From assembly GCA_902617895.1 (NCBI GenBank), contig CACMYJ010000004.1, forward strand, positions 54,770 to 118,769: a DNA stretch of 64,000 nucleotides, read 5' to 3'. The stretch comes from an uncultured Pelagibacteraceae bacterium. GTDB lineage: Bacteria > Pseudomonadota > Alphaproteobacteria > Pelagibacterales > Pelagibacteraceae. The notes beneath the pieces were generated by a model. That model had not been told where the DNA came from and made no database searches. It saw nothing but the letters and a program-made list of their open reading frames with translations. Each line of letters starts with the position of its first letter. Within the stretch, counting starts at the first letter, position 1. The position numbers were made by a program, and so were the translations under genes. Positions 25,731-44,913 of this stretch are shown in pieces.

Positions 25731-25740
25731 AGCCTCCTTT
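25731..25740 (-). promoter_or_regulatory. Shine-Dalgarno that fixes the LLM start
   Basis: On the minus strand AAAGGAGGCT lies just before the ATG at 25728. It is one of the strongest sites in the window and rules out the upstream in-frame start at 25770. Confidence 0.75.
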
Positions 25741-25772
25741 AAAAATTAATTTAAAGACGACCGATCCCACTT

Positions 25773-30170: not shown

Positions 30171-30638
30171 TTATTTTTTTAGCTTACCAGAAAACACTAA
30201 ATTTTCTGAGTTAAAAGAAACCTTATTTTTATTTATAAAGTCATCCATTATTTGGATTTTATCTTGTTCAAATTCTGTGACCTTTCTTTTATCCAGATCT
30301 ATATAAAGCGAGAGGCTTTCAATAGTTGCAGCAAGTTTTTTTGACTTCTTTTCATACATTTCGCATTTTAAATGTAATCTTTTTTTATCATGATCAAAGA
30401 AGGTGCAGTAAACATCTACTTCATCATTTTCTTTCACTTCATTGTCATAGGTAGTTCTCGTATCTACAACCATAGTACTTCTTTTATTAATTTGTGCATT
30501 TGAACCACCCATATGAAACTTATTAAGCATTGTTTCCCATGCTTGATCAAAAATTAGAACATAGTATGCCATATTCATATGTTCATTATAGTCTGTCCAT
30601 TCCTTAATAACTTTTCTAGTGGCAAGATGAAATGTCAT
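30171..30638 (-). CDS. cdhB: Hotdog thioesterase, probable betainyl-CoA thioesterase
   Basis: Hotdog-fold acyl-CoA thioesterase, 155 residues. The N-terminal VIKEWTDYNEHMNMAYYVL (residues 10-28) with FDQAWETML is the diagnostic block of the thioesterase found with, or fused to, carnitine 3-dehydrogenase, where it hydrolyses glycine betainyl-CoA to betaine and CoA. HDKKRLHLKCEMYEKKSKKLAATIESL fits the same family. The dehydrogenase and cleavage enzyme of that pathway are 2-4 kb away at 33156 and 32269 on the other strand. Assignment to betainyl-CoA is by family recall and context; a general acyl-CoA thioesterase remains possible. Confidence 0.75.
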   Translation of the reverse strand: MTFHLATRKVIKEWTDYNEHMNMAYYVLIFDQAWETMLNKFHMGGSNAQINKRSTMVVDTRTTYDNEVKENDEVDVYCTFFDHDKKRLHLKCEMYEKKSKKLAATIESLSLYIDLDKRKVTEFEQDKIQIMDDFINKNKVSFNSENLVFSGKLKK

Positions 30639-30646
30639 AATTTAAT

Positions 30647-31507
30647 TTAAACTTTATTTATTTTATCTGCTATCAATATTTTCCTTTTCATTTCTCGAAG
30701 GACAGGTTTTTCTATAAGTTTACCGTCTATGACTACTAGACCTGTATTTGAATTATTAAATTCTTCTAAAATTTTTTTAGCCTTGATAATTTCATCTTGA
30801 GGTGGTGTAAATACTTCATTTAAAATTTTAATTTGTTTTGGATGAATGGAACCTTTTCCAGTAAAGCCTAAGTTTCTTACTTGTTCAGCCTCTTTCCTCA
30901 TTCCTTCCATATTCTCTAAGTCTAAATAAGGTACATCAATTACATCTACACCAACACTTGCACCTGCATGAACTAATTTAGATCTCGCATGGACAAGATT
31001 TTCCCATTTATTTTCAACTCTAAGTTCAGCTGCCATATCAACTCCACCAAAATATAAAGCAACTATTCTTTTACTGGCATGAGCAATATTATAAATATTT
31101 TCTAAAGCCTCATTTGTTTCCATTATCACATGAAGATCCGTATCTAAATTACAGTCTGTTAAAAGATCATCTATAAACGTTATTTCATCTGGAGTTTTAA
31201 CCTTTGGTAACATGATAGCCTTTAGATTTATTTTGCTAGATATGAAAGCTTCTAAATCTAAAAGACCAAACTTTGTTCTTTGATTATTAAATCTGACAAC
31301 TAACTCTACATCATTTTTTACTTCGAGAGTCTTTAGAGCCTCTATAGTATTTTTTCTAGCTTCTGCTTTATCATTGATTGCTATCCCATCCTCTAATTCA
31401 ATACAAACCATGTCTGCACCTGATGCAATTGCTTTAGGAAACATTTCTGGATGAAGTCCAGGTGTAAAAATAAAACTTCGTCTTACTTTTAATTTGTTCA
31501 AGTCCAT
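30647..31507 (-). CDS. HpcH/HpaI aldolase / CitE-like lyase
   Basis: TIM-barrel lyase of the CitE/malyl-CoA lyase family, 286 residues. The N-terminal RRSFIFTPGLHPEMFPKAIA (9-28), VCIELEDGIAINDKAEAR, LPKVKTPDEI, the metal region ALYFGGVDMAAEL and GKGSIHPKQI are seen. Family reactions cleave or form beta-hydroxyacyl-CoA or related esters with acetyl-CoA, glyoxylate or oxaloacetate. It sits between the thioesterase and the class II aldolase gene, all in the same direction with 0-8 bp gaps. The combination with acyl-CoA genes suggests CoA-ester chemistry. Confidence 0.88.
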   Translation of the reverse strand: MDLNKLKVRRSFIFTPGLHPEMFPKAIASGADMVCIELEDGIAINDKAEARKNTIEALKTLEVKNDVELVVRFNNQRTKFGLLDLEAFISSKINLKAIMLPKVKTPDEITFIDDLLTDCNLDTDLHVIMETNEALENIYNIAHASKRIVALYFGGVDMAAELRVENKWENLVHARSKLVHAGASVGVDVIDVPYLDLENMEGMRKEAEQVRNLGFTGKGSIHPKQIKILNEVFTPPQDEIIKAKKILEEFNNSNTGLVVIDGKLIEKPVLREMKRKILIADKINKV

Positions 31508-32239
31508 TTAATTTTTGTAATCAGGTTCTTCTTTATCTAAAATTAATCTTATTTGAGATAGGAATAGATTTGCAAAATCAGTTGGAAAGTTTGCATGTTC
31601 TTCTGCTGTTTTCTCTGCAACTTCATGGCTGACCACATTAAGTTTTTGGTTTGTTGAAAGAGCTGTAAGATATGTTTCCGCCGCTCTTTCAAAATAATAA
31701 AGGGAATTAAAACCTTCAGCTACAGTTTCTCCTGTTGTTAAAATTCCATGATTTGCGAGTAACATGTGCTGTTTGTTTCCAAGAGAATTCGCCATTTTAA
31801 TGGATTCGTCCTCAAGTCCTAAACCTCCAAATTCATTGTATGTAGATACTCTATTATAAAACATCATCGTATTTTGATCGATTGGTTTCAAGACTGGGTC
31901 TTTTAGCGTAGAAAGAGCAGTTGCATATTTAGAATGAACATGAAAAATACACCTTGCGTGTGGAGCTTTTTCATGAATTGCGCCATGGATATACAAAGCT
32001 GTCGGATCAATAACGTCTGGCTTATTCTTTAACTCATCTTTATTTTCTTTAGTAACTAAGATCAAATCACTAGCCTTCATTCTACTAAAATGAATACCTG
32101 CTTTATTGCAGTAAAAATCAGATGTACCAGGTATGCATGCACTAAAATGGTTTGCAACTCCCTCATGCATATTAAGTCTAGCCGTCCATCTAAAAGTTGC
32201 AGCTAAATCCTTCTGTAATTCTGATATTTCCATTTGCAT
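31508..32239 (-). CDS. Class II aldolase/adducin family protein
   Basis: Zinc-dependent aldolase or decarboxylase of the fuculose-aldolase fold, 243 residues. The N-terminal domain has MHEGVANHFSACIPG; the zinc histidines are in IFHVHSKYATALS (HxH) and LANHGILTTGETVAEGF. Family members cleave or decarboxylate sugar-phosphate or hydroxyacid substrates. ATG codons at 32239 and 32233 are both possible starts; the first is used. It is divergent from the BKACE gene across only 29 bp. Confidence 0.87.
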   Translation of the reverse strand: MQMEISELQKDLAATFRWTARLNMHEGVANHFSACIPGTSDFYCNKAGIHFSRMKASDLILVTKENKDELKNKPDVIDPTALYIHGAIHEKAPHARCIFHVHSKYATALSTLKDPVLKPIDQNTMMFYNRVSTYNEFGGLGLEDESIKMANSLGNKQHMLLANHGILTTGETVAEGFNSLYYFERAAETYLTALSTNQKLNVVSHEVAEKTAEEHANFPTDFANLFLSQIRLILDKEEPDYKN

Positions 32240-32268
32240 GATTTTAAAATATAGTTGAAAAATAATTT

Positions 32269-33156
32269 ATGAACAACAACGTTTTTGTATCATGTGCTGT
32301 AACAGGGTCAGGCGATACTGCAAGCAAACACCCTGACTTACCAAAAACTCCAGAACAAATAGCTAAATCAGCAATAGAGGCAGCAAAAGCTGGAGCAGCA
32401 ATTGCACATATTCATGTTAGAGAAGAAGATGGAACACCAAGTAGAAGGTTGGAATTATATAAAGAAGTAGTTGATAGAATTAGATCAAGTGAAACCGATG
32501 TAATTTTAAACTTAACTACTGGGATGGGTGGAGATTTGGACATAGGACAAGGAAAAAACCCACTAGAATTTGGTCCAATGACTGATATGGCAAATGTAAT
32601 GGAAAGAATAGCTAATGCAGAACAATTTTTACCAGAAATTTGTACATTAGATGCTGGAACATTAAACTTTGGTGATGGTTCAGTCATTACAGTTAATACT
32701 CCTAATGATTTAAGAAAAGCTGCAAAAAAATTACAGGAAATTAAAGTTAAACCAGAGATAGAGGCATTTGATTTAGGAAATATGTGGTTTGGCTCTCAAT
32801 TATATAAAGAAGGTTTGTTAGATGATCCTCCAATGTTTCAAATGTGTTTAGGTATTCCTTGGGGAGCTCCAGCTACTCCGTTAGCAATGCAAGCAATGAA
32901 AGATATAATGCCAGAGCAAGGAGTGTGGTCAGGCTTTGCAATATCAAAAAATGAAATGCCTTTTGTAGCACAAACAGTTGTTATGGGTGGAAACCCAAGA
33001 GTTGGTTTAGAAGATAATTTGTATGTATCAAAAGGTAAACTTGCAACCAATGCTCAGTTAGTTGAAAAAGCGATCAGAATTGTAACAGATCTTGGTGCAT
33101 CAATAATGACTGCAGAAGAAACAAGGAAAAAATTAAAGCTTGTTAAACACAAGTAA
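32269..33156 (+). CDS. cdhC: BKACE (DUF849) beta-keto acid cleavage enzyme, probable 3-dehydrocarnitine cleavage enzyme
   Basis: Zinc enzyme that condenses a beta-keto acid with acetyl-CoA to give acetoacetate and a new acyl-CoA. At 295 residues it is full length. Visible are VSCAVTGSGDTASKHPDLP (N terminus), the zinc motif AHIHVREEDGTPS (two histidines, about residues 46 and 48), NLTTGMGGDL, ICTLDAGTLNFGD and the C-terminal glutamate region KNEMPFVAQTVVMGGNPRVGLEDNL. In carnitine degraders the orthologue acts on 3-dehydrocarnitine. The next gene is a carnitine-dehydrogenase-like enzyme overlapping by 1 bp, which supports that substrate. Other BKACE substrates such as 3-keto-5-aminohexanoate cannot be excluded. 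Confidence 0.85.
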   Translation: MNNNVFVSCAVTGSGDTASKHPDLPKTPEQIAKSAIEAAKAGAAIAHIHVREEDGTPSRRLELYKEVVDRIRSSETDVILNLTTGMGGDLDIGQGKNPLEFGPMTDMANVMERIANAEQFLPEICTLDAGTLNFGDGSVITVNTPNDLRKAAKKLQEIKVKPEIEAFDLGNMWFGSQLYKEGLLDDPPMFQMCLGIPWGAPATPLAMQAMKDIMPEQGVWSGFAISKNEMPFVAQTVVMGGNPRVGLEDNLYVSKGKLATNAQLVEKAIRIVTDLGASIMTAEETRKKLKLVKHK

Positions 33157-34100
33157 TGTCCAAAATTAAAAAAGTTGCAGTAATTGGCACAGGAGTAATT
33201 GGAGTAGGGTGGACAATAAGACTCTTGGCTCACAACATAAAAGTTTTAGCATACGATAAAAATTTAATTCAAAGAAATAACTTTAATCAAGAAATAAAAA
33301 GAGCCATACCTTTTGTAAAAAAACTATTTAATAAAAAAAAAATAAATTTAAATAATTTAAAGTTTTTTTCTTCTTTAGAGAGTACTGTTAAAGATGCTGA
33401 TCTAATCCAAGAATGTGCTCCTGAAAACTATAAACTTAAAACTCAATTAATAAGTCAAATTTCAAATAATTGTAAACCTGAGGTTTTGATATCGTCAAGC
33501 TCATCTGGATTACTTCCTTCAAGAATTTTTTCAAAATGTAAAAATAATAAAAGGGGTATTATTGCCCATCCATTCAATCCTGTTTATTTACTACCTTTAG
33601 TTGAAATAGTTCCAGGAAAAAAAACAAGTTCTAAATCATTAAATGAAGCAAGCAAATTTTATAAATCGATCTCAATGAACCCAATTATCCTTAAAAAGGA
33701 ACTGCCAGGATATCTATCTGACAGACTGCAAGAAGCTTTATGGAGAGAAGCACTTCATATTATAAATGAAGGATATGCCTCAACAGAGGATTTAGATAGA
33801 GCTATTGAGGACGGCCCAGGCTTAAGATACTCATTAATGGGAACATTTTTAACTTTTCATTTGGCAGGAGGAAAAGCCGGAATGAAACATATGCTTGAAC
33901 AATTTGGGCCCGCATTAAAACTCCCATGGACTAAGCTTAAAGCACCAAAATTATCAAAAAAACTCTCAGAAAGATTGATTTCTGGTACAAAAAAGCAAGC
34001 AAAAGGAAAGTCAATCAATCAATTATCAAATATAAGAGATGAGTACTTAGTCAACTTACAAAACCTTAGAAAAAAATATGAAAATAAAATTAGAAAATAG
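33156..34100 (+). CDS. cdhA: L-carnitine 3-dehydrogenase-like 3-hydroxyacyl-CoA dehydrogenase family protein
   Basis: NAD-dependent dehydrogenase of the 3-HAD superfamily, 314 residues without a fused thioesterase. Rossmann motif VIGTGVIGVGWTIRLL (9-24), AYDKN, the catalytic region SSSSGLLPS and HPFNPVYLLPLVEIVPG, and the C-terminal domain start LPGYLSDRLQEALWREALHI are seen. The HPFNP..LPLVE motif is typical of L-carnitine dehydrogenases and lambda-crystallin relatives. It is 1 bp overlapped with the BKACE gene. In many bacteria this protein carries the thioesterase as a C-terminal domain; here the thioesterase is a separate gene at 30171. Confidence 0.82.
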   Translation: MSKIKKVAVIGTGVIGVGWTIRLLAHNIKVLAYDKNLIQRNNFNQEIKRAIPFVKKLFNKKKINLNNLKFFSSLESTVKDADLIQECAPENYKLKTQLISQISNNCKPEVLISSSSSGLLPSRIFSKCKNNKRGIIAHPFNPVYLLPLVEIVPGKKTSSKSLNEASKFYKSISMNPIILKKELPGYLSDRLQEALWREALHIINEGYASTEDLDRAIEDGPGLRYSLMGTFLTFHLAGGKAGMKHMLEQFGPALKLPWTKLKAPKLSKKLSERLISGTKKQAKGKSINQLSNIRDEYLVNLQNLRKKYENKIRK

Positions 34101-34135
34101 ATATCTAAAAAAACTTAAAATGGTAATTTAGTTGT

Positions 34136-35170
34136 ATGGATTTTAATCATTTTTTAACAAGTTACATGCCAGATACAAGTATTGGTTCAAGACAGCATTT
34201 TAAAAATATGCTTGAAGAATGTGTAACTGCTGAAAAACTTGGTTATGCAACGGTATCAATACCAGAGCATCATTTAATTAACTTACTAATGATGCCGTCA
34301 CCATTGCAGATGGCTGTAAAGATTGCATCAGTTACAAAAAATATTAAAATAACAACAGGGATAGTTGTTTTGCCTCTACACGATATGAGAACATATGCTG
34401 GTGAAGTAGCTACTGCTGATATATTAACTGATGGAAGATTAATCTTAGGTGTAGGAAGAGGAGCATTTCCATGGGAAATGAAGAGACTAGGCACACCAAT
34501 AGAACAATCGAAAGAAAAATTTGTAGAGTCTTTAGAGGTTCTACAATTATTATTAAAAAACAAAGAAGTTTCGTATAAAGGAAAATACTATGACTTCGAA
34601 CCATTAACCATAATGCCTCGACCCATAAGTAATCCAATACCAATGATGGTTGCCGCAATGAATTTAGAAAGTATAAAAGATGCGGCTTCAAGAGGATTTC
34701 ATGTTCAATCAACAGTATTATCAGGTACAAAAGATCTTTTATTAAGTAGAGTTAATGCATTTAAAGAAGGCTGTATTCAACTAGGTGAAAAAGGTAAGTT
34801 ACTCAAACTTTCAATGCAACGAATGGCTTACTTAGCAAAGGATGAAAATGAAGCTAGAGAGAAAACAAAACTTGCTTATGAATATTATAAAAGATTTGAC
34901 AATATGTTTACAGGACCAGGAAAAGTAAAAGAAGGGAATATTGAAGCTTTGCCAAGAAAACAAACTTTAGAAGAATTAAAAGAAAATCTTTTAATTTGCC
35001 CTTTAAATGAAATGATTGATAAACTTAGCGTTTATGCTGAAGCAGGAGTTGATGAGGTAATTCTTAGTTCAAGTTTTGGACAATCTCAAGAAGACCTAAT
35101 AGAGTCAATGTATAGAATTGGTGAAAACGTAATCCCATATTTCAAAAAATCTAATATACAAGTAGCTTAA
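34136..35170 (+). CDS. LLM class flavin oxidoreductase (second copy)
   Basis: Luciferase-like flavin oxidoreductase, 344 residues. MDFNHFLTSYMPD at the N terminus, SIPEHHLINLLM (EHH motif), IKITTGIVVLPLHD, GRLILGVGRGAFPWEM and PRPISNPIPMMVAAMN are seen. It is only distantly similar to the LLM protein at 24559, differing in N terminus and length, but the EHH and GRL..GVGRG motifs align. It is followed after 6 bp by a paralogue of the 21502 hydrolase, so the LLM/hydrolase pairing recurs. Preceded by a 35-bp gap from the dehydrogenase. Confidence 0.9.
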   Translation: MDFNHFLTSYMPDTSIGSRQHFKNMLEECVTAEKLGYATVSIPEHHLINLLMMPSPLQMAVKIASVTKNIKITTGIVVLPLHDMRTYAGEVATADILTDGRLILGVGRGAFPWEMKRLGTPIEQSKEKFVESLEVLQLLLKNKEVSYKGKYYDFEPLTIMPRPISNPIPMMVAAMNLESIKDAASRGFHVQSTVLSGTKDLLLSRVNAFKEGCIQLGEKGKLLKLSMQRMAYLAKDENEAREKTKLAYEYYKRFDNMFTGPGKVKEGNIEALPRKQTLEELKENLLICPLNEMIDKLSVYAEAGVDEVILSSSFGQSQEDLIESMYRIGENVIPYFKKSNIQVA

Positions 35171-35176
35171 ATATCT

Positions 35177-35947
35177 ATGAGCATCATAGATTGCAATTAC
35201 TCAGTCACAGGATCAGGGCCTGCAATATTTTTAACTCATGGAGTTGGAGGTGCTGAAGATGCATGGAGATTTATTACTCCAAAACTTAAAAGCATGTTTA
35301 CAGTTGTGACATATGATTTAAGAGGTCACGGAAAATCACCTGTAAATAATAAAGATTTTAATTTAGATGATCTTGTATTAGATCTTGAAAGAGTAAGAGA
35401 AAAGACAAACATCCAAAAAGCCCATTTTATGGGACATTCTTTGGGGGGCATGATTGCTCCTGCTTATGCTAAAAAGTTTCCAGAAAGAGTTTTGTCAGTT
35501 GGCTTATTATCAACAGTTGCAGGTAGATCTGATGAAGATAAACAAAAAGTTTGGAATGTTATTTCAGATCTAAAAGATAAAGGCGTTGAACAAACATTAA
35601 AAAATCTAACTAACCGATGGTTCACAGACAATTTTATTGAAAAAAATCCAGATCTTGTATCTAGGAGATTAAAACAAGTAATAGATACAGATAAAGATGT
35701 ATTTATAAATGTTTTTAAAATTTATGCGGAAACTGAGATGATTTCTTGGTTAAAGGATATAAAGAAACCATGCCTATTTATGACAGGTGAAAACGATGGT
35801 GGATGCACTCCTTCTCATAACAAAAAAATGTCAAATGAGGTAAAAGATTCTAAATTAGTTATTATACCAGAGGTAAAACACTCTTTTTTGATAGAGGCTC
35901 CTGAGCAAATTGCAAATAACTTAATAGAATTTATTGAAAATATTTAA
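35177..35947 (+). CDS. Alpha/beta hydrolase (second copy)
   Basis: Alpha/beta-fold hydrolase, 256 residues. FLTHGVGGAEDAW (18-30), YDLRGHGKSP, elbow MGHSLGG (Ser88), acid in TGENDGGCTPSHN and histidine in PEVKHSFLIEAP. The cap block NRWFTDNFIEKNP matches the hydrolase at 21502. Enol-lactonase-like by overall pattern. It is the last gene of a plus-strand run with BKACE, dehydrogenase and LLM oxidoreductase and ends 4 bp before the convergent SDR gene. Confidence 0.87.
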   Translation: MSIIDCNYSVTGSGPAIFLTHGVGGAEDAWRFITPKLKSMFTVVTYDLRGHGKSPVNNKDFNLDDLVLDLERVREKTNIQKAHFMGHSLGGMIAPAYAKKFPERVLSVGLLSTVAGRSDEDKQKVWNVISDLKDKGVEQTLKNLTNRWFTDNFIEKNPDLVSRRLKQVIDTDKDVFINVFKIYAETEMISWLKDIKKPCLFMTGENDGGCTPSHNKKMSNEVKDSKLVIIPEVKHSFLIEAPEQIANNLIEFIENI

Positions 35948-35951
35948 AGCT

Positions 35952-36737
35952 CTAATGCATTCTTAAAGTGTTACCATCAACGCCAACTACTTGACCAGAA
36001 ATTCTAGAAGACTCATCGGATATTAAATAGCAACACATTTTACCAATATCTTTCTCGTAAACCCAAGTATTAAGAGAAGTCATAGAAACGAATTCACTCT
36101 CTACAGCTTTTTTTGAAATTTTCAAAAATTTAGCTTTATCTCTAATAACTCTTCCCATTCTATCTCCTTTAACAGTTCCTGGACAAATTGCGTTCACTCT
36201 AATTTTAAACTTGCCTAATTCCATTGCTAAAGTTTTAGTCATTCCAACTACCGCCCATTTACTGGCTGAGTAGGGAGATCTTAATGGAAACCCAAATATA
36301 CCTGCTGTAGAAGACAGATTGACGACTGATCCACCTTTATTTTTTTTTAACATTGGGATTGCTAACTTTGAAAAAATAAAATGACTAATTACGTTTATCT
36401 TTAACGTTTGTTCCCAATCTTTTGTTTTAAGTTTGTCCATAGTTCCTGTTGGGCCTGCAACTCCAACATTATTAATTAGTGCATCAATCTTTTGTGTTTT
36501 TTTTTTAATTTCTTTAAAAAAATTTATTACATCATTTTCATTTGAGGCATCGCAATGAAAAGAAAACAACCTTTTATTATTCAAAGGATTTTTTTTTAAT
36601 TTATTTATAGATTTTTTATCGACATCACAAACGAATACCTTCGCACCTTTGTCAAGACACTCCTTTGCTGTTGCCCACCCAATTCCTGATGCTCCAGCAG
36701 AGATAATTATTTTTTTATTTTTGAAATTGTATGACAT
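35952..36737 (-). CDS. SDR family NAD(P)-dependent oxidoreductase
   Basis: Classical short-chain dehydrogenase, 261 residues. Cofactor motif SAGASGIGWATAKE (13-26), NNVGVAGPTG, catalytic SSTAGIFGF with YSASKWAVV (Tyr and Lys) and the family PG motif ICPGTVKGDRM, ending SGQVVGVDGNTLRMH. Residues after the second strand (VCDVDK) suggest NAD preference. It starts within the stop codon of the upstream 2OG oxygenase (1-bp overlap), so hydroxylation and alcohol oxidation may act in sequence. Substrate unknown. Confidence 0.93.
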   Translation of the reverse strand: MSYNFKNKKIIISAGASGIGWATAKECLDKGAKVFVCDVDKKSINKLKKNPLNNKRLFSFHCDASNENDVINFFKEIKKKTQKIDALINNVGVAGPTGTMDKLKTKDWEQTLKINVISHFIFSKLAIPMLKKNKGGSVVNLSSTAGIFGFPLRSPYSASKWAVVGMTKTLAMELGKFKIRVNAICPGTVKGDRMGRVIRDKAKFLKISKKAVESEFVSMTSLNTWVYEKDIGKMCCYLISDESSRISGQVVGVDGNTLRMH

Positions 36738-37588
36738 TAATCTGTTAATCCATCGGATCTAACTTTATTTCTTTCTAAATGTATGGGCAATACTTTTCCA
36801 TAAATTGCTTTTGAATGTTCAGGTGTATTTACTCTCCAGGGATCCAATACATACGCAGGTATGCACATAAAACGTGATGTTTTTCCAATAACTTTAGTTA
36901 CTCTATGCATAGTAAATCTACCTTTAAATATTTGTAAATCACCTGGTTCAAGTTCAAGTCGTTTTACTCTTGTTCGATCTCCATCTAGTACTTTTTTAAC
37001 ATCGTCAAATTTTTCGTTACCTGGTTCTCTTATGTTTGGACAATATTCAAATATTCCTCCTTCTTCTGGTTTTTGGATCATGAGGCTTAAAGTAAATTCA
37101 CAGCTATCAAAATGCCAAGGTAATATTCCATCTGGTTCCATAACGTTATATGCATGACAGGCTAAAGGATCAGCCCATCTATATATAGGTGCGATCCCTA
37201 AGCATGCAGATACAAATTTTAATAATTCCTCAGTTTCATAAAGAAATTTCATCTCCGAATTTTTTTCAAAACAGTCAGAATTTAAATATCCATTAAATCT
37301 ATCCATAAATATTCTTTTTGGGTGATCTTTAGGAAGAGTAGGATCGTCTTTTGCATAAAGATATGCGTTGATACTTTCTTTAGACATATAAACTTCATTA
37401 ATCTGTTGCTCTAATTCTTTTTTCATTACATTTAAAGAATTTGGTAAAATAAAATTAGGAATTACTGAACAACTATCGCTATCTAATTCAGTTTTACATT
37501 TTTCAATTATTTTCTTGATCTTTGGTGATTGTAAATCATGAATTGGGTATTTAACTAAATTAACGATGTTACTTAAATTTTTTTTCAT
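36737..37588 (-). CDS. BesD/HalD-like Fe(II)/2OG oxygenase
   Basis: Non-heme iron enzyme, 283 residues. It resembles the HalD/BesD/ArpA-like group that contains free-amino-acid halogenases and hydroxylases. The core is WADPLACHAYNVMEPDG (138-154), then LPWHFDSCEFTLSLMIQKP with His159 and Asp161, EGGIFEYCPNIR, LEPGDLQIFKGRFTMHRV (His228) and KTSRFMCIPAY (Arg239). Because the iron site is HxD with an Asp, it should hydroxylate; the halogenases of the group have Gly or Ala in that position. A 1-bp overlap couples it to the SDR. The amino-acid substrate is a guess from family; trimethyllysine or lysine-like compounds would suit the nearby genes. Confidence 0.72.
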   Translation of the reverse strand: MKKNLSNIVNLVKYPIHDLQSPKIKKIIEKCKTELDSDSCSVIPNFILPNSLNVMKKELEQQINEVYMSKESINAYLYAKDDPTLPKDHPKRIFMDRFNGYLNSDCFEKNSEMKFLYETEELLKFVSACLGIAPIYRWADPLACHAYNVMEPDGILPWHFDSCEFTLSLMIQKPEEGGIFEYCPNIREPGNEKFDDVKKVLDGDRTRVKRLELEPGDLQIFKGRFTMHRVTKVIGKTSRFMCIPAYVLDPWRVNTPEHSKAIYGKVLPIHLERNKVRSDGLTD

Positions 37589-37603
37589 AACTATTTAATC
37601 TAA

Positions 37604-38629
37604 TTATGAGTTTGAAAGTGATTCTTGCAATTCTTTATTAGAAATATAGCCTTTAGCATTTCCTTGTTTATCAACTACCTCACAATTAGAGTTACTACAA
37701 ACAACTTGAGGTAGAAATTCCTCTATAAATTGGTCTTCTTCAACTTTTATCAAGTTTGATTTGTCAATATCATCTGATTGATTTACTGGTTTCATAATAA
37801 TTTTTGCTTTTATAACCTTTGTTCTATTTACGTCTTTAACAAATGCCTCAACATATTCATCAGCAGGGTTCATTATGATTTCTACAGGTGTTCCTACCTG
37901 CACAAGTTTTCCTGCATTCAAAATTCCAATATGATCTCCTAACCTTAATGACTCATCAAGATCATGAGTAATAAATACTATTGTCTTTTTTAATTCTGAT
38001 TGGAGGTCTATAAGTTGTTTCTGCATATCACTTCTAATTAAAGGATCTAATGCAGAAAAAGCTTCATCCATTAACATTATGTCTGTATCTGTAGCCAAGG
38101 CTCTTGCAAGACCTACTCTTTGTTGCATACCTCCAGAAAGTTGCGCAGGATATTGATTTTCAAATCCACTTAATCCAACTGACTCAATTTTTTCCATAGC
38201 AACAGAATTTCTTTTTTCAATCTCCATACCTTGCATTTCGAGTCCGTAACCAACATTTTGTAAAACTGTTTTGTGTGGGAATAGCCCAAATCGTTGAAAT
38301 ACCATACTCATTTTTTGCCTTCTAAATTCAATTAATTGTTCTTTGTTTAGAGTAGTAACATCTTTGCCTTCTACTAAAATTTCTCCTGAGGTTGGGTCTA
38401 TTAATCTATTTAAATGTCTAATTAGTGTTGATTTTCCTGATCCAGACAAACCCATACAAACAAATGTTTCTCCTTCTTCAATTTTTAGAGACACATTATC
38501 TAATCCAACTGTATGTCCAGTTTTTTCTAGAACATCTTCTTTTGTAGCTCCTTCTTGCACCATTTTAAGAACGCTAGAAGGTTTTGGACCAAAAATTTTG
38601 TAGACGTTGTTGATTTCGATTTTAGACAT
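37604..38629 (-). CDS. proV: Glycine betaine/proline-type ABC ATPase ProV (copy 1)
   Basis: ATPase of an OpuA/ProU-type importer, 341 residues. The typical ProV N terminus is KIFGPKPSSVLKMVQEGATK with DVLEKTGHTVGLDNVSL; Walker A is GLSGSGKST, Q-loop KMSMVFQRFGLFPHKTVL, signature LSGGMQQRVGLARALA and Walker B IMLMDEAFSALDPL. A C-terminal CBS-like tail (about 275-341) ends with CSNSNCEVVDKQGNAKGYISN. It has no permease or SBP beside it and is divergent from the gamma-butyrobetaine dioxygenase gene. A second ProV is at 43867. Confidence 0.93.
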   Translation of the reverse strand: MSKIEINNVYKIFGPKPSSVLKMVQEGATKEDVLEKTGHTVGLDNVSLKIEEGETFVCMGLSGSGKSTLIRHLNRLIDPTSGEILVEGKDVTTLNKEQLIEFRRQKMSMVFQRFGLFPHKTVLQNVGYGLEMQGMEIEKRNSVAMEKIESVGLSGFENQYPAQLSGGMQQRVGLARALATDTDIMLMDEAFSALDPLIRSDMQKQLIDLQSELKKTIVFITHDLDESLRLGDHIGILNAGKLVQVGTPVEIIMNPADEYVEAFVKDVNRTKVIKAKIIMKPVNQSDDIDKSNLIKVEEDQFIEEFLPQVVCSNSNCEVVDKQGNAKGYISNKELQESLSNS

Positions 38630-38690
38630 TTATTTAAAGTTTAGTCCTTTTAGTACATCAAAGCAAATCAACAATAAAATAACTTTATTT

Positions 38691-38711
38691 AATTCAACTA
38701 TTAATTGAATT
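38691..38711. promoter_or_regulatory. Inverted repeat in the proV / dioxygenase divergent gap
   Basis: AATTCAA (38691-38697) and TTGAATT (38705-38711) form a 7-bp dyad with a 7-base spacer in the 114-bp divergent gap. It could be an operator acting on both genes. The bases are all A or T apart from one pair, so chance is a real possibility. Confidence 0.3.
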
Positions 38712-38729
38712 GAAATTTTTTGGTTTTTA

Positions 38730-38735
38730 TATAAT
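38730..38735 (+). promoter_or_regulatory. Candidate -10 box of the dioxygenase gene
   Basis: TATAAT ends 8 bases before the ATG at 38744. Transcription would start at or just before the start codon, giving a near-leaderless message as at 2725. No Shine-Dalgarno is seen in the gap. Confidence 0.35.
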
Positions 38736-38743
38736 TATTTATT

Positions 38744-39877
38744 ATGAATTCGATTTCTAAAATCGCAAAAAACAGCACTTATTTACAAATTACTTGGAAT
38801 GATGGTGAAGAAAGTAAATTTAATTACATGTGGTTAAGAGATAATTGTCCTACTGCACATGATAAAGACTCAAGACATAGAATGTTTAATATCTTAGAGG
38901 TATCAAAAGAAATAAATCCCAAAAAATATTCTTTAAATGGTGATGGCAAATTAGAAATAGAGTGGAGTGAGGGTGACCACACAAGTTATTATGATCCTAA
39001 GTGGTTGAGAGAAAATTGTTATACTATTAAAAATAAACAAGAATATGTCTCACCTTATCATCTTTGGGATAATAATTTGGAAAACGAATTTTCGTCGATA
39101 TGTATTGAACATGATGAAGTAATTAATTCTGATGAAGGATTAATAAAGTGGTTAGAATTATTACATCATAAAGGTATAGCAATAGTTAAAAATTCACCTA
39201 CAGAAAAAAAATCAGGCTTTGAAATTCTTCATAGAATAAGTCATGTAAGGGAAACCTTTTTTAAAACTCCTTTTGAAGTAATCAATATTCCAAAACCAAA
39301 TAATTCTGCATACACGGCGCATGCTCTAAGAAATCATATGGATTTACCTTGGTTTGAATTACCACCTGGTTATCAGTTTTTGCATTGTTTAGTAAATGAT
39401 GCAAAGGGTGGAGATTCCTCTGCGATTGATGGTTTTGCAGTTGCTGATTATTTGAGAAAAAATGAAAAAGATATTTTTGAAACATTAATCTCTGTACCTC
39501 TAAAGTTTAGAGATAAAGATTATACCCAAGAATCTCACCGAAGCTTCCATGCCCCAGCAATTAGTTTAACAAAAGATAAAGATTTTCATGATATTAGATT
39601 TAGTGTTGCAACTATGGATGCATTAGACTGTCATCCAGACCAAATGGACAAAGTTTATAAAGCCCACCATAGATTTGGAAATCTTCTACACGATGATAAG
39701 TTTCAGATTAAATTTAGATTAGGACCTGGAGACATATTTTCTTTTAATAATAGGCGTGTTTTACACGGCAGAACTGCTTTTGACCCAAATTCAGGTCATC
39801 GTCATCTTCAAGGATATTATTTAGATAGAGATGAAATACTTGGAAGATTGGAATATCTTAAAAAATATAAATCATAA
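38744..39877 (+). CDS. Gamma-butyrobetaine dioxygenase-like 2OG oxygenase
   Basis: Fe(II)/2-oxoglutarate oxygenase of the gamma-butyrobetaine/trimethyllysine dioxygenase family, 377 residues; the former makes L-carnitine. It has the N-terminal DUF971-type domain (WNDGEESKFNYMWLRDNCP, 18-36; WLRENC, 87-92) and a C-terminal TauD domain with NHMDLPWFELPPGYQFLHC (197-215: iron His198, Asp200), KGGDSSAIDGFAVADYL, FNNRRVLHGRTAFD (His341) and GHRHLQGYYLD (Arg353). The zinc site of the N-terminal domain usually needs several cysteines; here only Cys35 and Cys92 are evident. Next to transport and downstream carnitine genes. Trimethyllysine dioxygenase is the main alternative. Confidence 0.85.
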   Translation: MNSISKIAKNSTYLQITWNDGEESKFNYMWLRDNCPTAHDKDSRHRMFNILEVSKEINPKKYSLNGDGKLEIEWSEGDHTSYYDPKWLRENCYTIKNKQEYVSPYHLWDNNLENEFSSICIEHDEVINSDEGLIKWLELLHHKGIAIVKNSPTEKKSGFEILHRISHVRETFFKTPFEVINIPKPNNSAYTAHALRNHMDLPWFELPPGYQFLHCLVNDAKGGDSSAIDGFAVADYLRKNEKDIFETLISVPLKFRDKDYTQESHRSFHAPAISLTKDKDFHDIRFSVATMDALDCHPDQMDKVYKAHHRFGNLLHDDKFQIKFRLGPGDIFSFNNRRVLHGRTAFDPNSGHRHLQGYYLDRDEILGRLEYLKKYKS

Positions 39878-40510
39878 GTTTTCAAATATAAGATTGTTAT
39901 CTTTTTCATATTTCAAAAATTCCTTTTTGTTTTTAATCGTGTAATAATATTTCTCTTTATTAATTATTTGTATTCTTCGACTATTTAAAAACTTTTTATC
40001 TAATATTAGATATTTTATTTTTTTGTTTAGGCTACTTTTTAAAATAGATTTTATGCTAGATTTGTTGGAAAAAGATAAACCTACTGATAGTTTTGAGTTA
40101 AGTTTAAGAAGATTATAGATATTTTCATGCTTAAAAGAGATAAAAGTACATTTTTTAAAACTTCTAGTTTCTTTAATCAAATTAGATAAAAGTTCTTTAT
40201 TAAATAATGGCTTTATTTCAATAAAGATAGGAAATTTTTTTTTTGAAATTTTTAGAACCTCTTTTAATGGTGGTATTTGAAAGTTTTTATTTTTAATTTT
40301 TTTTAGATCTTCATAATTAATATTTTTGATACTTTTGCTTATTTTAAAAATTCTCTTTAAAGTAAAATCATGAAAGCATACAAACTTTTTATCTTTGGTT
40401 GAATGAATATCTGTTTCAATCCCAAATCTTTTTTTAAATGATGCTCGAAAAGACTCTAAGCAGTTTTCTTTGTAACTCTTATTTACAATTCCTCTATGTA
40501 TTATATGCAT
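39872..40510 (-). CDS. ugpQ: Glycerophosphodiester phosphodiesterase
   Basis: Hydrolyses glycerophosphodiesters such as glycerophosphocholine to an alcohol and glycerol-3-phosphate. The 212-residue protein has HIIHRGIVNKSYKENCLESF (2-21; catalytic His, then ENCLESF for ENT..AF), FGIETDIHSTKDKKFVCFHD (Glu, Asp and second His) and LKRIF, then PIFIEIKP. It is shorter than many GDPDs (about 240) and very lysine-rich. Lies 3' of the ProX terminator and overlaps the dioxygenase tail to tail by 6 bp. Glycerophosphocholine would feed choline into the surrounding betaine genes, which is inference. Cytoplasmic, as no signal is seen. Symbol by family. Confidence 0.85.
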   Translation of the reverse strand: MHIIHRGIVNKSYKENCLESFRASFKKRFGIETDIHSTKDKKFVCFHDFTLKRIFKISKSIKNINYEDLKKIKNKNFQIPPLKEVLKISKKKFPIFIEIKPLFNKELLSNLIKETRSFKKCTFISFKHENIYNLLKLNSKLSVGLSFSNKSSIKSILKSSLNKKIKYLILDKKFLNSRRIQIINKEKYYYTIKNKKEFLKYEKDNNLIFENL

Positions 40511-40511
40511 G

Positions 40512-40546
40512 TAAAAAAAAAGGGCTCTGTTTCCACAAAGCCCTTA
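40512..40546 (-). terminator. Rho-independent terminator of proX
   Basis: Reading the minus strand, AAGGGCT pairs with AGCCCTT (plus-strand arms 40520-40526 and 40539-40545) around a 12-base loop, followed by a run of T (the A run 40513-40520). It ends the proX transcript 24 bases after its stop and lies 2 bases before the GDPD start, so GDPD is probably read at a lower level or from its own promoter. Confidence 0.85.
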
Positions 40547-40569
40547 ATTATTTTTTTGAAGTTTAATTA

Positions 40570-41580
40570 TTAGTTAGGTAACCAACTTTTCCATTTATCT
40601 GGATTGTTGTCTAACCACTCATTTACAACTTCTTTAACGTCTCTTTTTTTGATGTCAACTTCAACAAGCATCTTAGCTTGGTCTAAGTTTTCTAATTTCA
40701 TTCTTTCAAAAAAAGCTTTTGCTTTAGCATGTTCTGGTTTAGCAAATGTGTCAGGATTTCCATAATTCATAGTGTAATCTTTATCCCAACCAGTTGCTGG
40801 CCATCCATCTGTACCGCAAGTTTTCCAGTTGTTTGCTTCAGTAAATGTGTCTCCTTCACAAGTTTTGTATTCAGGAAGTTGAACTCCTACCATGTCAAAC
40901 TCACCAAAGAACCAGTGTGGTGACCATAAGTATAACAAGAACGGCTCTTTTCTCATGTAAGCAGCTTTTGCTTCTGCAATTGCAGCCGCTTCAGTACCTA
41001 GCTCATCTGCTTGGAAATCAATTCCTAAAAGATCAAGTCTTTTTTGGTCATGACAGTTCCAACCAGCTACAGGACATCCAATTAATCTTCCTTTACCGCC
41101 GGTTTCAATAGTTGCAAATTTAGCTTTATGTTTGTTTAGGTCTCTCCAAGTTTTAATGCCCATTTCTTCTGCAGCATATCTAGGTATCCAGTAATCTGAC
41201 ATACCGATGATTCCAGTAGTTCCTAAAAGATCAACTGTTCCATCTCCTTTATAAGACTTTACTACTTTGCCGTCATAAATTAAATCTTCATTAAACATTA
41301 CATCGTCTGCCTCTGCATAACTTGGCCAACTCTCGCAAGCGAAATCAAGTTCTCCAGCTGCAATTGCTTCCCATAATCCAGTACCAGACGGGAAAACTGT
41401 TTGTTTAATTTTATAGCCCATTTCTCGTTCAAGAATTGCTACTGCAACTTCACAAGTGATTATTCCACCTGTCCAGTCAGCAATAGCAGCATGTAATCTT
41501 TTTGCATTTGCCTGAGTAAGACTAGCAAGTAAAATTACGAAAGATAAGAATAGAGCTGATATTGTTTTTGATAACCTCAT
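40570..41580 (-). CDS. proX: Glycine betaine/quaternary amine ABC substrate-binding protein ProX/OpuAC
   Basis: Periplasmic ligand-binding protein of the OpuAC family, 336 residues, with a signal peptide (about 1-26, ending TQANA). Key features are ADWTGGIITCEVAVAILERE (33-52), FPSGTGLWEAIAAGELDFACESW and the aromatic-rich second lobe LYLWSPHWFFGEFDMV. Four tryptophans and tyrosines are positioned to form an aromatic cage for a trimethylammonium group. It is preceded by AGAGGAAATAA Shine-Dalgarno and followed by its own terminator. The ligand may be betaine, carnitine, gamma-butyrobetaine, choline or TMAO; it cannot be resolved here. Confidence 0.9.
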   Translation of the reverse strand: MRLSKTISALFLSFVILLASLTQANAKRLHAAIADWTGGIITCEVAVAILEREMGYKIKQTVFPSGTGLWEAIAAGELDFACESWPSYAEADDVMFNEDLIYDGKVVKSYKGDGTVDLLGTTGIIGMSDYWIPRYAAEEMGIKTWRDLNKHKAKFATIETGGKGRLIGCPVAGWNCHDQKRLDLLGIDFQADELGTEAAAIAEAKAAYMRKEPFLLYLWSPHWFFGEFDMVGVQLPEYKTCEGDTFTEANNWKTCGTDGWPATGWDKDYTMNYGNPDTFAKPEHAKAKAFFERMKLENLDQAKMLVEVDIKKRDVKEVVNEWLDNNPDKWKSWLPN

Positions 41581-41584
41581 TTAT

Positions 41585-41592
41585 TTCCTCTC
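41585..41592 (-). promoter_or_regulatory. Shine-Dalgarno of proX
   Basis: On the minus strand GAGAGGAA lies 4 bases before the ATG at 41580. The leader ending TTTAATTAATTAAAAGAGAGG resembles the leader of the 5372 SBP gene (AATTAATTAATAATAAAGAGG). Confidence 0.65.
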
Positions 41593-41669
41593 TTTTAATT
41601 AATTAAAGTCTTATCTTAAAACAAAAATTACTAGTTTGTAAACTGTGAATAATGATGCTTTTACTTGAC

Positions 41670-43787
41670 TTATAAACCTAGAGCTTCTCTCTGTTTTTTA
41701 GTCCAAGCAAGTGAAATTCTGTCTATAATTATTGCTAATAATACAATTCCTATACCTGCTGCTAATCCTCTACCAGTATCTGATCTTGCCAATCCATTAA
41801 ATACTTCCAAACCTAATCCTTTTCCACCAATTAAAGGTGTAACAATCTGCATTGCGAAAGCCATAATTACTGTTTGATTAAATCCAATAACTAAACTTGG
41901 AATAGCTAATGGAAATTTAATTTTATTTAGAGTTTGTAATAAAGTACCACCAAATGAACGTGAAACCTCTGAGTAAGTTCCGGATACTTGAGTTAAACCT
42001 AAAGATGTTAATCGAATGATGGGTGGTATGGAGTATATTACTGTTGCTAGTACAGCAGATACTATTCCTCCTCCAAAAAACATTAAAACAGGAATTAAAT
42101 AACAGAAGTAAGGTAAAGTCTGCATGGCATCTAAAACCACGTTTTGAACATTTCTAAATCTCTCATTATAAGAAGCAATAATTCCAAGAGGAACTCCAAT
42201 TATAAAACATAAAGCTACAGATACTAAAACAGATGATAGTGTTATCATTGATTGTGGCCATATCCCACAAGCACCAATAAAAAGTAATAATATTGCTGTA
42301 ATAATTGCAAATCTGATACCAACAGTAAAATATCCAATTGCTGCAAATACACCTAGTGTATACCACCACGGCACATGAGTTAGGAATATATCAAGTGGTC
42401 TTAAAAGTTTAAGATATACAAATCCTCTAAGAGCTTTTGTAAATGCAATAAAACCAGGATTAACAGTTAAAGACTCTACACTATTAGAAATTGGTTGTCT
42501 TATTGATAATCTCCACTCTTCAGGAAATGATCCAATACTTATCATATAAGAATCAACGAATGATATAGTCAGAACAAGTAAAAAAGATGGAATTATATAA
42601 TATCTTCTAGAAATTATTTCACCAATATCTCTTGCTGTTTGTCTATTTGCTAACGAAATACAAAATTCAAATACATATGCAATAATTTTTGTCAAATTTG
42701 TACAAACAAAATTAATTAAACCACCTAAAAATTCTAAAGGCTTTTCTATAATTCTTGCTAGAGTAAATTTTTCCCAAGATTGAGGAAGCAAATAAAATTT
42801 TTGAACGTTCGATGGAAGTATTTGTTTCGTTTTACTAAATGACATACTAAATCTATCAAACATTATTGCCATGAAAAGAATACAGAGTCCTCCTTCCATT
42901 GCCCATCCAACATCAAGTCTTCTAATTGCTTGCCATACTTGACCACCGATCCCTTCAGCTCCAATAAAACATGCCAAAACTACAAGTGCTAAAGCCATCA
43001 TTATCACCTGATTAATTCCCATCATTATACTTGGTAGCGAGAGTGGAATTTTAATTTTAAATAGTAGTTGTAACTTACTTGATCCAAATGAGGTAGCAGA
43101 CTCAATTGTTTCTGCTGAAACTTGTCTTATACCAGTATTTGTTAATCTTATTATTGGAGGCATTGAGTAAATCATAGTGGCTAATATTGCTGGCGCTCCT
43201 CCAATTCCAAAAAAGAAAAGAGCTGGAAAAAGATAAACAAACGCAGGCATTACTTGCATTGTATCTAAAATAGGCTTCATAAAATTTTCAAACCTGTCAC
43301 TTTGTGAACAAAGCACACCTAGAGTCACTCCAACTACGACACATAGTAAAACCGATAAACCCATCAATGCTACCGTTTGCAGAGATGGTTCCCACATTCC
43401 TGTTGCACCCCAAAAATAAATGACAAATAAAGAGTACAATCCTAATCTTAAACCACCTGCAATTAAGCAAGGCAAAAATATTAATGCTGCAATTAATAGC
43501 CAAGGTGAGTCGATAAGGAAATCTTCAACAAAGTAATATACATTTTTAATATAACTGGCTATTATTTTGGTAATCCATCTATAATTTTTTTTTAAATAAT
43601 CTTCACCTTCATTAACCCATGCTGTAAATGTAAATTGATCAGTGACGACCTTTGGCATTTTTGAAGGACCATCGCTTTGAAAAGATAACCACAGTGCAAC
43701 TAAAAATGTTATTAAGATTACAGAATATGTAATAATATTTTTTGATGAATTTGGCTTTCCTTGGATACTTGCTACTTCAGAAGACAT
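41670..43787 (-). CDS. proW: Double ProW-type ABC permease (two fused permease domains)
   Basis: Inner-membrane channel for quaternary amines, 705 residues, about twice the length of ProW. Two complete permease domains are present: the first around residues 85-310 with the ATPase-contact loop TSFGSSKLQLLFKIKIPLSL, the second around 465-695 with RSFGGTLLQTLNKIKFPLAI. The block DAMQTLPYFCYLIPVLMFFG in the second half matches DTMQVMPAFVYLFPALFFFG in the first. One chain can thus supply both halves of the channel. A 79-bp divergent gap separates it from proV copy 2, and proX follows 89 bp downstream. Confidence 0.93.
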   Translation of the reverse strand: MSSEVASIQGKPNSSKNIITYSVILITFLVALWLSFQSDGPSKMPKVVTDQFTFTAWVNEGEDYLKKNYRWITKIIASYIKNVYYFVEDFLIDSPWLLIAALIFLPCLIAGGLRLGLYSLFVIYFWGATGMWEPSLQTVALMGLSVLLCVVVGVTLGVLCSQSDRFENFMKPILDTMQVMPAFVYLFPALFFFGIGGAPAILATMIYSMPPIIRLTNTGIRQVSAETIESATSFGSSKLQLLFKIKIPLSLPSIMMGINQVIMMALALVVLACFIGAEGIGGQVWQAIRRLDVGWAMEGGLCILFMAIMFDRFSMSFSKTKQILPSNVQKFYLLPQSWEKFTLARIIEKPLEFLGGLINFVCTNLTKIIAYVFEFCISLANRQTARDIGEIISRRYYIIPSFLLVLTISFVDSYMISIGSFPEEWRLSIRQPISNSVESLTVNPGFIAFTKALRGFVYLKLLRPLDIFLTHVPWWYTLGVFAAIGYFTVGIRFAIITAILLLFIGACGIWPQSMITLSSVLVSVALCFIIGVPLGIIASYNERFRNVQNVVLDAMQTLPYFCYLIPVLMFFGGGIVSAVLATVIYSIPPIIRLTSLGLTQVSGTYSEVSRSFGGTLLQTLNKIKFPLAIPSLVIGFNQTVIMAFAMQIVTPLIGGKGLGLEVFNGLARSDTGRGLAAGIGIVLLAIIIDRISLAWTKKQREALGL

Positions 43788-43846
43788 ATTATCTAAAATT
43801 TAAAATAAATAATTTTACTTTTAAAGAAAAATATTGTCTATTTTTG

Positions 43847-43862
43847 TGTTATTAAAATAACA
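43847..43862. promoter_or_regulatory. Dyad just upstream of proV copy 2
   Basis: TGTTATT (43847-43853) and AATAACA (43856-43862) form a 7-bp inverted repeat with a 2-base centre, 4 bases before the proV ATG and in the divergent gap with proW. It could be an operator for both genes or obstruct initiation as a hairpin. No Shine-Dalgarno is present. Confidence 0.4.
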
Positions 43863-43866
43863 AAAT

Positions 43867-44913
43867 ATGAATAATCAACCAAAAATAACGTGTTCAAATG
43901 TTTGGAAATTATTTGGTTCTGACGAACAAAGAATAATTAAAGATTTAGATAAAAGTTTATCAATAAAAGAAGTTCAAGAAAAAACCGGACATGTGGTTGC
44001 AGTAAAAGATGTTAGCTTTTCAATTGAGAAAGGTGAGACATTTGTTGTAATGGGTTTATCGGGAAGCGGAAAATCAACCTTAGTTAGATGTATTTCAAGA
44101 TTAATTGAACCAACGTCTGGAACAGTAAAAATGGATGATGTTGACGTAACGAAAATGAGCGGAAAAGAATTATTAGATTTAAGAAGAAATAAAATGAGCA
44201 TGGTTTTTCAACATTTTGGTTTATTTCCACATAGAACAGTTGTGGAGAATATTGGATATGGTTTAGAGATTAGAGGAAATAAAAAAAATGATAGAGTAGA
44301 AAAATCAATGGAAGTTTTAAAAATGGTTGGTTTAGAAGGTTGGCACAATAATTATCCAAGAGAACTATCAGGAGGAATGCAACAAAGGGTGGGTTTAGCT
44401 CGTGCATTAGCTGTAGATCCAGAAATTTTAATTTTTGATGAACCCTTTTCAGCATTAGATCCATTAATTAGAAGAGAAATGCAGGATGAACTTTTAAAGA
44501 TTCAAGAAAAGTTACAGAAGACTATGGTATTTATTACTCATGATTTCTTAGAGGCAATTAAAATGGGTGATCATATTGCAATTATGAAAGATGGAGAAGT
44601 TTCTCAAGTAGGGACACCAGAGGAAATAGTTGCTAACCCCAAAGATCAATATGTAAAAGATTTTTGCGAAGATGTGCCAAAATACAAAGTCCTTAGTGCA
44701 AGCAAAGTAATGAGGGAAGAATGTTGTGACGATACAAAAAAAATGTTTGAAAACGGATCAAATAATATTCCTCACAATTCAAAAATAGAAACTTTAATTG
44801 ATAAGCTTGTAGATACAGATCAGAAATTTCCAGTGGTTAATAGTGAGACAGGTGAGCTTATTGGTGAAATTGATAGAGCAATAGTTATGAAATCAATGAA
44901 ATCTGCTAGTTAA
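43867..44913 (+). CDS. proV: Glycine betaine/proline-type ABC ATPase ProV (copy 2)
   Basis: ATPase of a ProU/OpuA importer, 348 residues. N-terminal NVWKLFGSDEQRIIKDLDKS with EVQEKTGHVVAVKDVSF, Walker A GLSGSGKST, KMSMVFQHFGLFPHRTVV, signature LSGGMQQRVGLARALA and Walker B ILIFDEPFSALDPL, with a CBS-like C-terminal tail (about 280-348). Divergent from the double ProW and ProX genes, it is the more likely partner of that permease. The copy at 37604 is clearly diverged in the tail. Overlaps the convergent EamA gene by 8 bp. Confidence 0.94.
   Translation: MNNQPKITCSNVWKLFGSDEQRIIKDLDKSLSIKEVQEKTGHVVAVKDVSFSIEKGETFVVMGLSGSGKSTLVRCISRLIEPTSGTVKMDDVDVTKMSGKELLDLRRNKMSMVFQHFGLFPHRTVVENIGYGLEIRGNKKNDRVEKSMEVLKMVGLEGWHNNYPRELSGGMQQRVGLARALAVDPEILIFDEPFSALDPLIRREMQDELLKIQEKLQKTMVFITHDFLEAIKMGDHIAIMKDGEVSQVGTPEEIVANPKDQYVKDFCEDVPKYKVLSASKVMREECCDDTKKMFENGSNNIPHNSKIETLIDKLVDTDQKFPVVNSETGELIGEIDRAIVMKSMKSAS

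Follow-up and report, generated by a model that had tools for sequence, protein, structure and literature searches.

A variant of a published SAR11 island, predicted to convert gamma-butyrobetaine or carnitine to glycine betaine, in an uncultured Pelagibacteraceae genome

Introduction

Do the genes for a gamma-butyrobetaine (GBB) dioxygenase-like protein (GBBH), a carnitine-dehydrogenase-like protein (CDH), a BKACE and a thioesterase (TE) that share one region of an uncultured Pelagibacteraceae genome form a single pathway, and which compound would it serve? The region, called the window here, is a stretch of 64,000 nucleotides (G000:C4:54770-118769) with a GC content of 30-34% along its length, taken from a SAR11-like genome of 1,174,946 bases in 22 contigs that is 83.7% complete. 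An earlier note on this DNA had described a dispersed pathway from GBB through carnitine to glycine betaine, equipped with its own importer; all of the open reading frames (ORFs) that it listed were recovered at their positions, with the families as named (Table 1).

According to the accessible part of the report, 8 of 16 Arctic SAR11 genomes (subclade Ia.1) carry an island of 17-20 genes that includes BBOX, CDH, BKACE, ACOT and betaine transport genes, is enriched at high latitude and was read by its authors as an island for glycine betaine uptake and production (PMC12421898). Offshore SAR11 genera are described, in the accessible text of a further study, as uniquely containing carnitine metabolism genes (PMC12636525), and the accessible text of another describes CdhABC for carnitine in Ruegeria pomeroyi (PMC12478193). 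The island itself is therefore already published, and the window is a variant of the published form.

The comparisons presented here make it probable that this variant belongs to a SAR11 island predicted to convert GBB or carnitine to glycine betaine. In the proposed route, a quaternary amine would be imported, GBB would be hydroxylated to carnitine and carnitine would be oxidized to 3-dehydrocarnitine, which, together with acetyl-CoA, would be turned by BKACE into betainyl-CoA and acetoacetate, with glycine betaine finally being released from betainyl-CoA. From the gene families and their arrangement we infer the substrates, the direction of flux, the imported ligand and the steps that follow glycine betaine and acetoacetate.

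Conservation and Linkage of the Pathway Genes

The four enzyme genes are divided between the two strands and interspersed with genes for other enzymes; the BKACE and CDH genes overlap by one base. Their arrangement was followed in the best 80 of at least 366 loci ranked by CDH similarity, with flanks of up to 10 kb (L001 and L002 are excluded from the counts, and some contigs stop inside the region); because these loci were chosen by CDH similarity, they carry no information on how common CDH is. All 80 are recorded as Pelagibacteraceae, Pelagibacterales or Candidatus Pelagibacter, those nearest to the window CDH (99% identity) coming from uncultured Pelagibacteraceae single-cell genomes. The order TE-BKACE-CDH-luciferase-like monooxygenase (LLM)-hydrolase-short-chain dehydrogenase (SDR)-HalD-ProV-GBBH is retained in 49 of them, so that the word dispersed, used in the earlier note, is misleading. 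Counted singly, BKACE is found in 70 loci, TE in 71, GBBH and the HalD-like gene in 62 each and LLM in 57, while the SDR is no more than 5 kb from CDH in 77; TE, BKACE, CDH and GBBH are present jointly in 59.

Co-occurrence was assessed in a set of 99 family genomes, including the window's own, drawn separately from the loci and by species rather than abundance. Completeness ranges from 55 to 100%, so absences are soft, and the Fisher tests treat related genomes as independent, so that their values are indications only. CDH is carried by 17 genomes, BKACE by 15, TE by 31 and the HalD-like gene by 22; a GBBH ortholog (at least 71% identity) occurs in 21 of the 34 genomes with any match, the other 13 holding just 29-36% identical paralogs and being excluded as ortholog carriers. 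All 15 BKACE genomes have the GBBH ortholog (Fisher 2.5e-13), and in all 15 the two genes are on a single contig, 1.5-11.1 kb apart. TE likewise accompanies BKACE in 15/15 genomes (1.4e-9), within 3.6 kb in 14. CDH occurs in 13 of the 15 BKACE genomes, which amounts to 13 of the 17 CDH genomes (3.7e-11), with a gap to BKACE of at most 10 bp in five of the 13 and at most 7 kb in seven; 13 of the 17 CDH genomes also have the GBBH ortholog (5.4e-8). Together, the recurring order and the co-occurrence in the 99 genomes indicate that the grouping of these genes is more than chance.

Relatives of the Pathway Enzymes

The enzymes were compared with a reference set of nine plasmid carnitine clusters (L083-L090, L099) and eight other BKACE stretches (L091-L098), in which genes were located by blastp. 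With the nine carnitine-cluster BKACEs the window BKACE shares 51-59% identity, as against 26-46% with the eight others. In trees built with IQ-TREE (supports for BKACE and CDH are taken from unrooted trees), the SAR11 BKACEs form one group (support 100) and are joined at 70 with the cluster BKACEs of Novosphingobium, Paracoccus, Leisingera, Sinorhizobium and Rhizobium; Kce and four other BKACE types are separated from these SAR11 and alphaproteobacterial cluster BKACEs at 98. The identity ranking and the split from Kce agree with the subfamily placement on which the earlier note depended, and the grouping at 70 favors it with moderate support. Identification of the window protein as Kce, the lysine-fermentation enzyme, was rejected, given a Kce model score of 239 bits (cutoff 382), low identity and the same split. 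A second BKACE of the own genome (G000:C6, locus L002) gave no blastp match in the comparison and is absent from the tree.

In the profile searches BKACE exceeds its cutoff, whereas CDH and GBBH, although their best models are those expected from the earlier note, stay below the curated cutoffs (Table 1), and they are therefore named CDH-like and GBBH-like. The window CDH is 36-48% identical to the CDHs of the nine carnitine clusters, whose group in the tree also holds one CDH-like protein (support 61).

TE is a hotdog thioesterase, 29-31% identical to the TEs of three reference clusters. Its sole NCBIfam match is to positions 346-471 of PRK07531, the fused carnitine 3-dehydrogenase (59 bits, E 2.7e-16; the cutoff of the whole model is 592). 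TE is thus related to the final part of the carnitine dehydrogenase fusion and is a candidate for betainyl-CoA cleavage; it is not specific to the pathway, given that it is also found in 16 of the 84 genomes that lack BKACE.

The active site of the GBBH-like protein was examined by aligning the protein with eight relatives from SAR11 and six from plasmids, together with human BBOX1 and TmpA, using an assignment of cage and iron-binding residues of the human enzyme that is in part our assumption. The window protein retains H202, D204 and H347, which would bind iron, as well as R360, and shows F/F/Y/Y at the cage positions (Y/W/Y/Y in the human enzyme), a set identical to that of the Burkholderia arboris cluster protein. 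At position 292, TmpA and the proteins of Phyllobacterium, Halomonas and Jannaschia have Asn, that of B. arboris has Ala, and those of Rhizobium leguminosarum and Thioclava share the Ser of the window protein; since this position varies among bacterial relatives, it does not decide the substrate. Separately, a second GBBH-like paralog (29-36% identical) lies at G000:C5:51297-52328, and many SAR11 genomes have such a paralog, whether or not they also carry the ortholog.

A HalD-Fold Oxygenase Paired With CDH

A further gene tied to CDH encodes an iron/2-oxoglutarate (Fe/2OG) oxygenase of the HalD/BesD fold, which is present in 16 of the 17 CDH genomes (Fisher 1e-12), within 3 kb of CDH in 11 of the 17 and in same-strand tandem in nine. 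The fold of its structural model matches HalD, BesD and Hydrox at a middling mean pLDDT of 68.7; identity to this family is about 12-16%, and neither sequence nor profile searches detected a significant match among solved chains. HalD/BesD-type halogenases lack the carboxylate ligand of the iron. In the window protein the H-x-D motif is intact, and W-H-F-D is invariant in 28 aligned sequences, which points to a hydroxylase type rather than a halogenase. HalD, BesD and Hydrox are Fe/2OG enzymes that act on free cationic amino acids, whereas the window gene stands in a context of quaternary amine genes.

In relatives, the HalD-like gene comes after genes for a Rieske oxygenase and a DddP-like M24 protein. 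Contig 8 of the own genome carries the Rieske and M24 genes, and HalD and CDH were matched only in the island. Given its association with CDH, we infer that the HalD-like enzyme acts next to CDH in the pathway. Going further, it is conceivable, if rather doubtful, that the protein provides a second, non-homologous entry by hydroxylating a trimethylammonium acid (GBB or lysine-derived) to a 3-hydroxy product passed to the adjacent CDH, HalD and CDH then being a transferable pair that moved between a Rieske/M24 betaine locus and the BKACE-GBBH island. A literature search on Pelagibacter, halogenase and betaine matched a single paper, on Cr(VI)-polluted soil, and thus gave, within the library searched, no report connecting the HalD-like gene with SAR11; the HalD-CDH link is the part of this analysis that goes beyond the published work found.

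Two observations concern the Rieske/M24 neighborhood itself. The DddP-like M24 protein stands beside a distantly GbcA-like Rieske oxygenase at L140:5722-6984 and G000:C8:30694-31923, and this SAR11 pair may act on a betaine or a sulfonium compound. At L149:7020-7925, the Rieske-like and HalD-like genes are separated by a gene whose product, judged by eye, is similar to EgtD-type methyltransferases.

Importer Genes

The earlier note had credited the pathway with its own importer, a claim that found no firm support: the ligand cannot be read from the sequence, a ProX match (E 1e-40 or better) occurs in 4 of the 99 genomes, and only an ATPase is left of the importer on the GBBH side. More specifically, the ProV gene at 37604-38629 is read, from sequence comparison, as a probable remnant of the ProV-ProW'-ProX' importer that stands beside GBBH in relatives; its fuller form is seen in L056 and L073, whereas the window keeps the ATPase and has another ProX/ProW/ProV set alongside, so that importer types differ between forms of the island. 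By sequence, the nearest solved chain to ProX is 4xz6. The possibility that the window ProX/ProW/ProV set is a core SAR11 betaine transporter was rejected on the same ProX count.

Comparison With Known Systems

The likeness between the window and the Arctic SAR11 island was judged by gene names. In the accessible part of the published list, the names in common are BBOX, CDH, BKACE, ACOT thioesterase, class II aldolase and GPDP, and further a glycine betaine ABC transporter, CHDH, ALDH, lactoylglutathione lyase, HADH and DMT; compared by name with that same part, the LLM, the HalD-like oxygenase and an HpcH-like gene are confined to the window (PMC12421898). On names only, the TauD-family dioxygenase of the window (Table 1) is a possible counterpart of the gene listed there as BBOX(2). 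Locus L056 (AH-324-N03) has homologs of most Arctic-island genes in addition to other ORFs.

Many AG-numbered single-cell genomes have loci in the window order, and at least two of these loci (L037 and L040) come from plate AG-901. AG-901-N13 is given in the accessible text as a genome of GORG-Tropics, which was sampled between 40N and 40S (PMC11247762). Since window-order loci thus occur on a plate of a tropical and subtropical collection, the polar reading of the island may be too narrow.

Clusters of the caiX-cdhCAB type resemble the window in keeping BKACE, CDH and a thioesterase together, with BKACE ahead of CDH; in the window, by contrast, TE is a separate gene on the opposite strand and GBBH lies within the locus. 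BKACE directly precedes CDH in the nine reference clusters, with a binding-protein gene in between in Paracoccus. A separate TE follows CDH in four (L083, L088 and L099 by blastp, Citricoccus L087 by annotation), and in the remaining five the length and annotation of CDH indicate a long, fused form. The Leisingera cluster includes an acetoacetate-CoA ligase. The B. arboris cluster (L099) is like the window in holding BKACE, CDH, TE and GBBH in one stretch, but differs in that all are on one strand, its GBBH is 37% identical and the human Zn-site positions are occupied by Cys/Cys/Cys/His.

Weighing the Alternatives

Several results weigh against carnitine as the substrate or against a single pathway. 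CDH does not lie near BKACE in 6 of the 13 genomes that hold both; four CDH genomes (G038, G046, G082 and G096, 62-66% complete) are without BKACE and the GBBH ortholog, and two BKACE genomes (G025 and G068, 78% complete) are without CDH. TE, as noted, is not pathway-specific. Besides the shortfalls of CDH and GBBH against their own models, CDH reaches 296 bits with the fused-form model (cutoff 592), and the SAR11 CDHs form a separate group (97) that stands apart from the reference CDHs, a placement that does not decide whether carnitine is their substrate. The support of 70 behind the BKACE grouping is only moderate, deeper branches have 21-61, and a Mesorhizobium BKACE with no CDH beside it groups with Burkholderiales cluster BKACEs at 65. 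Asn292 of human BBOX binds the GBB carboxylate, according to the accessible text of the report (PMC12067446); it is replaced by Ser in the window protein and the eight aligned SAR11 relatives. At the human Zn-site positions the window protein, as aligned, keeps one Cys, and other bacterial GBBH-like proteins vary there too. Finally, a search of the own genome, at its 83.7% completeness, for a PF01144 CoA transferase gave no match.

Such results leave an appreciable minority chance that beta-hydroxylation and beta-keto-cleavage by these enzymes serve some other quaternary or cationic compound, such as a different trimethylammonio acid, with carnitine not the main substrate. The sub-cutoff scores and the loss of Asn292 fit this alternative, as do the near-equal similarity of GBBH to TmpA (172 vs 166 bits among solved relatives, TmpA also being the second-best NCBIfam model with 274 bits), the modest BKACE support, and the tie of CDH to a HalD-fold oxygenase that follows Rieske and M24 genes in relatives and whose solved relatives were crystallized with lysine or ornithine. 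It is countered by the greater closeness of BKACE to the nine carnitine-cluster enzymes than to the eight others, and by the existence in B. arboris of a BKACE-CDH-TE-GBBH cluster whose GBBH shares the F/F/Y/Y residues at the cage positions. The presence of ProX/ProW/ProV and choline-dehydrogenase-like genes would suit an osmolyte island devoted mainly to glycine betaine or choline through import and choline oxidation, the interpretation given in the published work, with the carnitine genes a side branch, but the complete BKACE-GBBH linkage, set against the rarity of the window ProX, and the variation of importer types make this improbable. Least credible of all is a chance assembly of unrelated genes in a mixed region, which the two strands and intervening enzymes might suggest but which the recurring order and the BKACE-GBBH association speak against.

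Conversion of GBB or carnitine to glycine betaine thus stands as a genomic prediction, supported best by the BKACE itself and the linkage of its gene to that for GBBH, while the import of GBB or carnitine, also claimed in the earlier note, is unproven. Next steps for both predicted products are plausible in the own genome, which has an acetoacetyl-CoA synthetase (743 bits, cutoff 521) and, in long frames, three stretches of PF16350, which we take to be a dimethylglycine-dehydrogenase domain. The SDR was considered as a candidate 3-hydroxybutyrate dehydrogenase that would handle acetoacetate; it scores 174 and 168 bits with models of that enzyme, both below cutoff, its best model being a FabG subfamily (217.5, cutoff 222). 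A literature search for a marine source of butyrobetaine gave none among the matches listed.

Other Genes of the Window

Table 1. Genes of the island and related genes in the window, with positions, strands and profile scores.
Feature	Position	Strand	Evidence
Choline-dehydrogenase-like GMC oxidoreductase	27748-29328	-	PRK02106 742.5 bits, over cutoff 605
TauD-family dioxygenase	29334-30167	-	PF02668 201 bits
Thioesterase (TE), candidate betainyl-CoA thioesterase	30171-30638	-	4HBT_2 82 bits, cutoff 25.5
Class II aldolase family protein	31508-32239	-	NCBIfam PRK07490 298 bits, over cutoff 260
BKACE, predicted 3-dehydrocarnitine:acetyl-CoA cleavage enzyme (betainyl-CoA + acetoacetate)	32269-33156	+	PF05853 306 bits, cutoff 24.8
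CDH, carnitine-dehydrogenase-like	33156-34100	+	NCBIfam L-carnitine dehydrogenase 349 bits, cutoff 414
Luciferase-like monooxygenase (LLM)	34136-35170	+	PF00296
Alpha/beta hydrolase, next after LLM	35177-35947	+	
Short-chain dehydrogenase (SDR)	35952-36737	-	Overlaps HalD-like gene by 1 bp
HalD/BesD-fold Fe/2OG oxygenase	36737-37588	-	PF23169 HalD 43 bits, cutoff 26
ProV-type ATPase	37604-38629	-	TIGR01186 370.5 bits, over cutoff 326.6
GBB-dioxygenase-like Fe/2OG oxygenase (GBBH)	38744-39877	+	TIGR02409 322 bits, cutoff 414.75
Glycerophosphodiester-phosphodiesterase-like gene	39872-40510	-	Named by eye and after the list of the published island
ProX/OpuAC substrate-binding protein	40570-41580	-	PF04069 146 bits
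ProW-type permease, 705 aa	41670-43787	-	Two BPD_transp stretches in a single protein
Second ProV-type ATPase	43867-44913	+	TIGR01186 366 bits, over cutoff 326.6
Aldehyde dehydrogenase, betaine-aldehyde/aminobutyraldehyde type	53364-54794	-	HpaE 431, BADH 429 bits, both below cutoff

Some neighbors of the pathway genes recur elsewhere. A 31-33% identical relative of the aldolase lies between the HalD-like and CDH genes in L140, L141, L142, L144 and L073; a homolog of the glycerophosphodiester-phosphodiesterase-like gene stands beside GBBH in L056, L067 and L073, and in L056 and L073 GBBH has a homolog of the aldehyde dehydrogenase no more than 2 kb away. The GMC oxidoreductase scores 673 bits with the betA model, below its cutoff of 732.

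Farther out, the minus strand at 20028-25770 carries in one run a betaine-aldehyde-type aldehyde dehydrogenase (469 bits, below cutoff), an alpha/beta hydrolase, a PF06684 'Amino acid synthesis' protein, a thiamine pyrophosphate (TPP) enzyme and a luciferase-like monooxygenase, and looks like a degradation operon for some, perhaps N-methylated, compound. Homocysteine-S-methyltransferase-like genes lie at 49390-50379 (+) and 52013-52927 (-), with weak scores of 59 and 90 bits for the betaine-homocysteine methyltransferase model (cutoff 338). A thiolase-like gene, named by eye, at the window end (63125-64000, -) is a possible user of acetoacetyl-CoA, and an Rfam rhtB sRNA match (76 bits) at 4595-4670 (+) overlaps the beginning of a LysE/RhtB-like gene, named by eye.

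Implications

If the predicted conversion is correct, GBB or carnitine could supply glycine betaine and acetyl units to some members of the SAR11 family, in which the pathway would be an accessory trait. In addition, the pairing of the HalD-like gene with CDH points to a group of likely quaternary-amine oxygenases.

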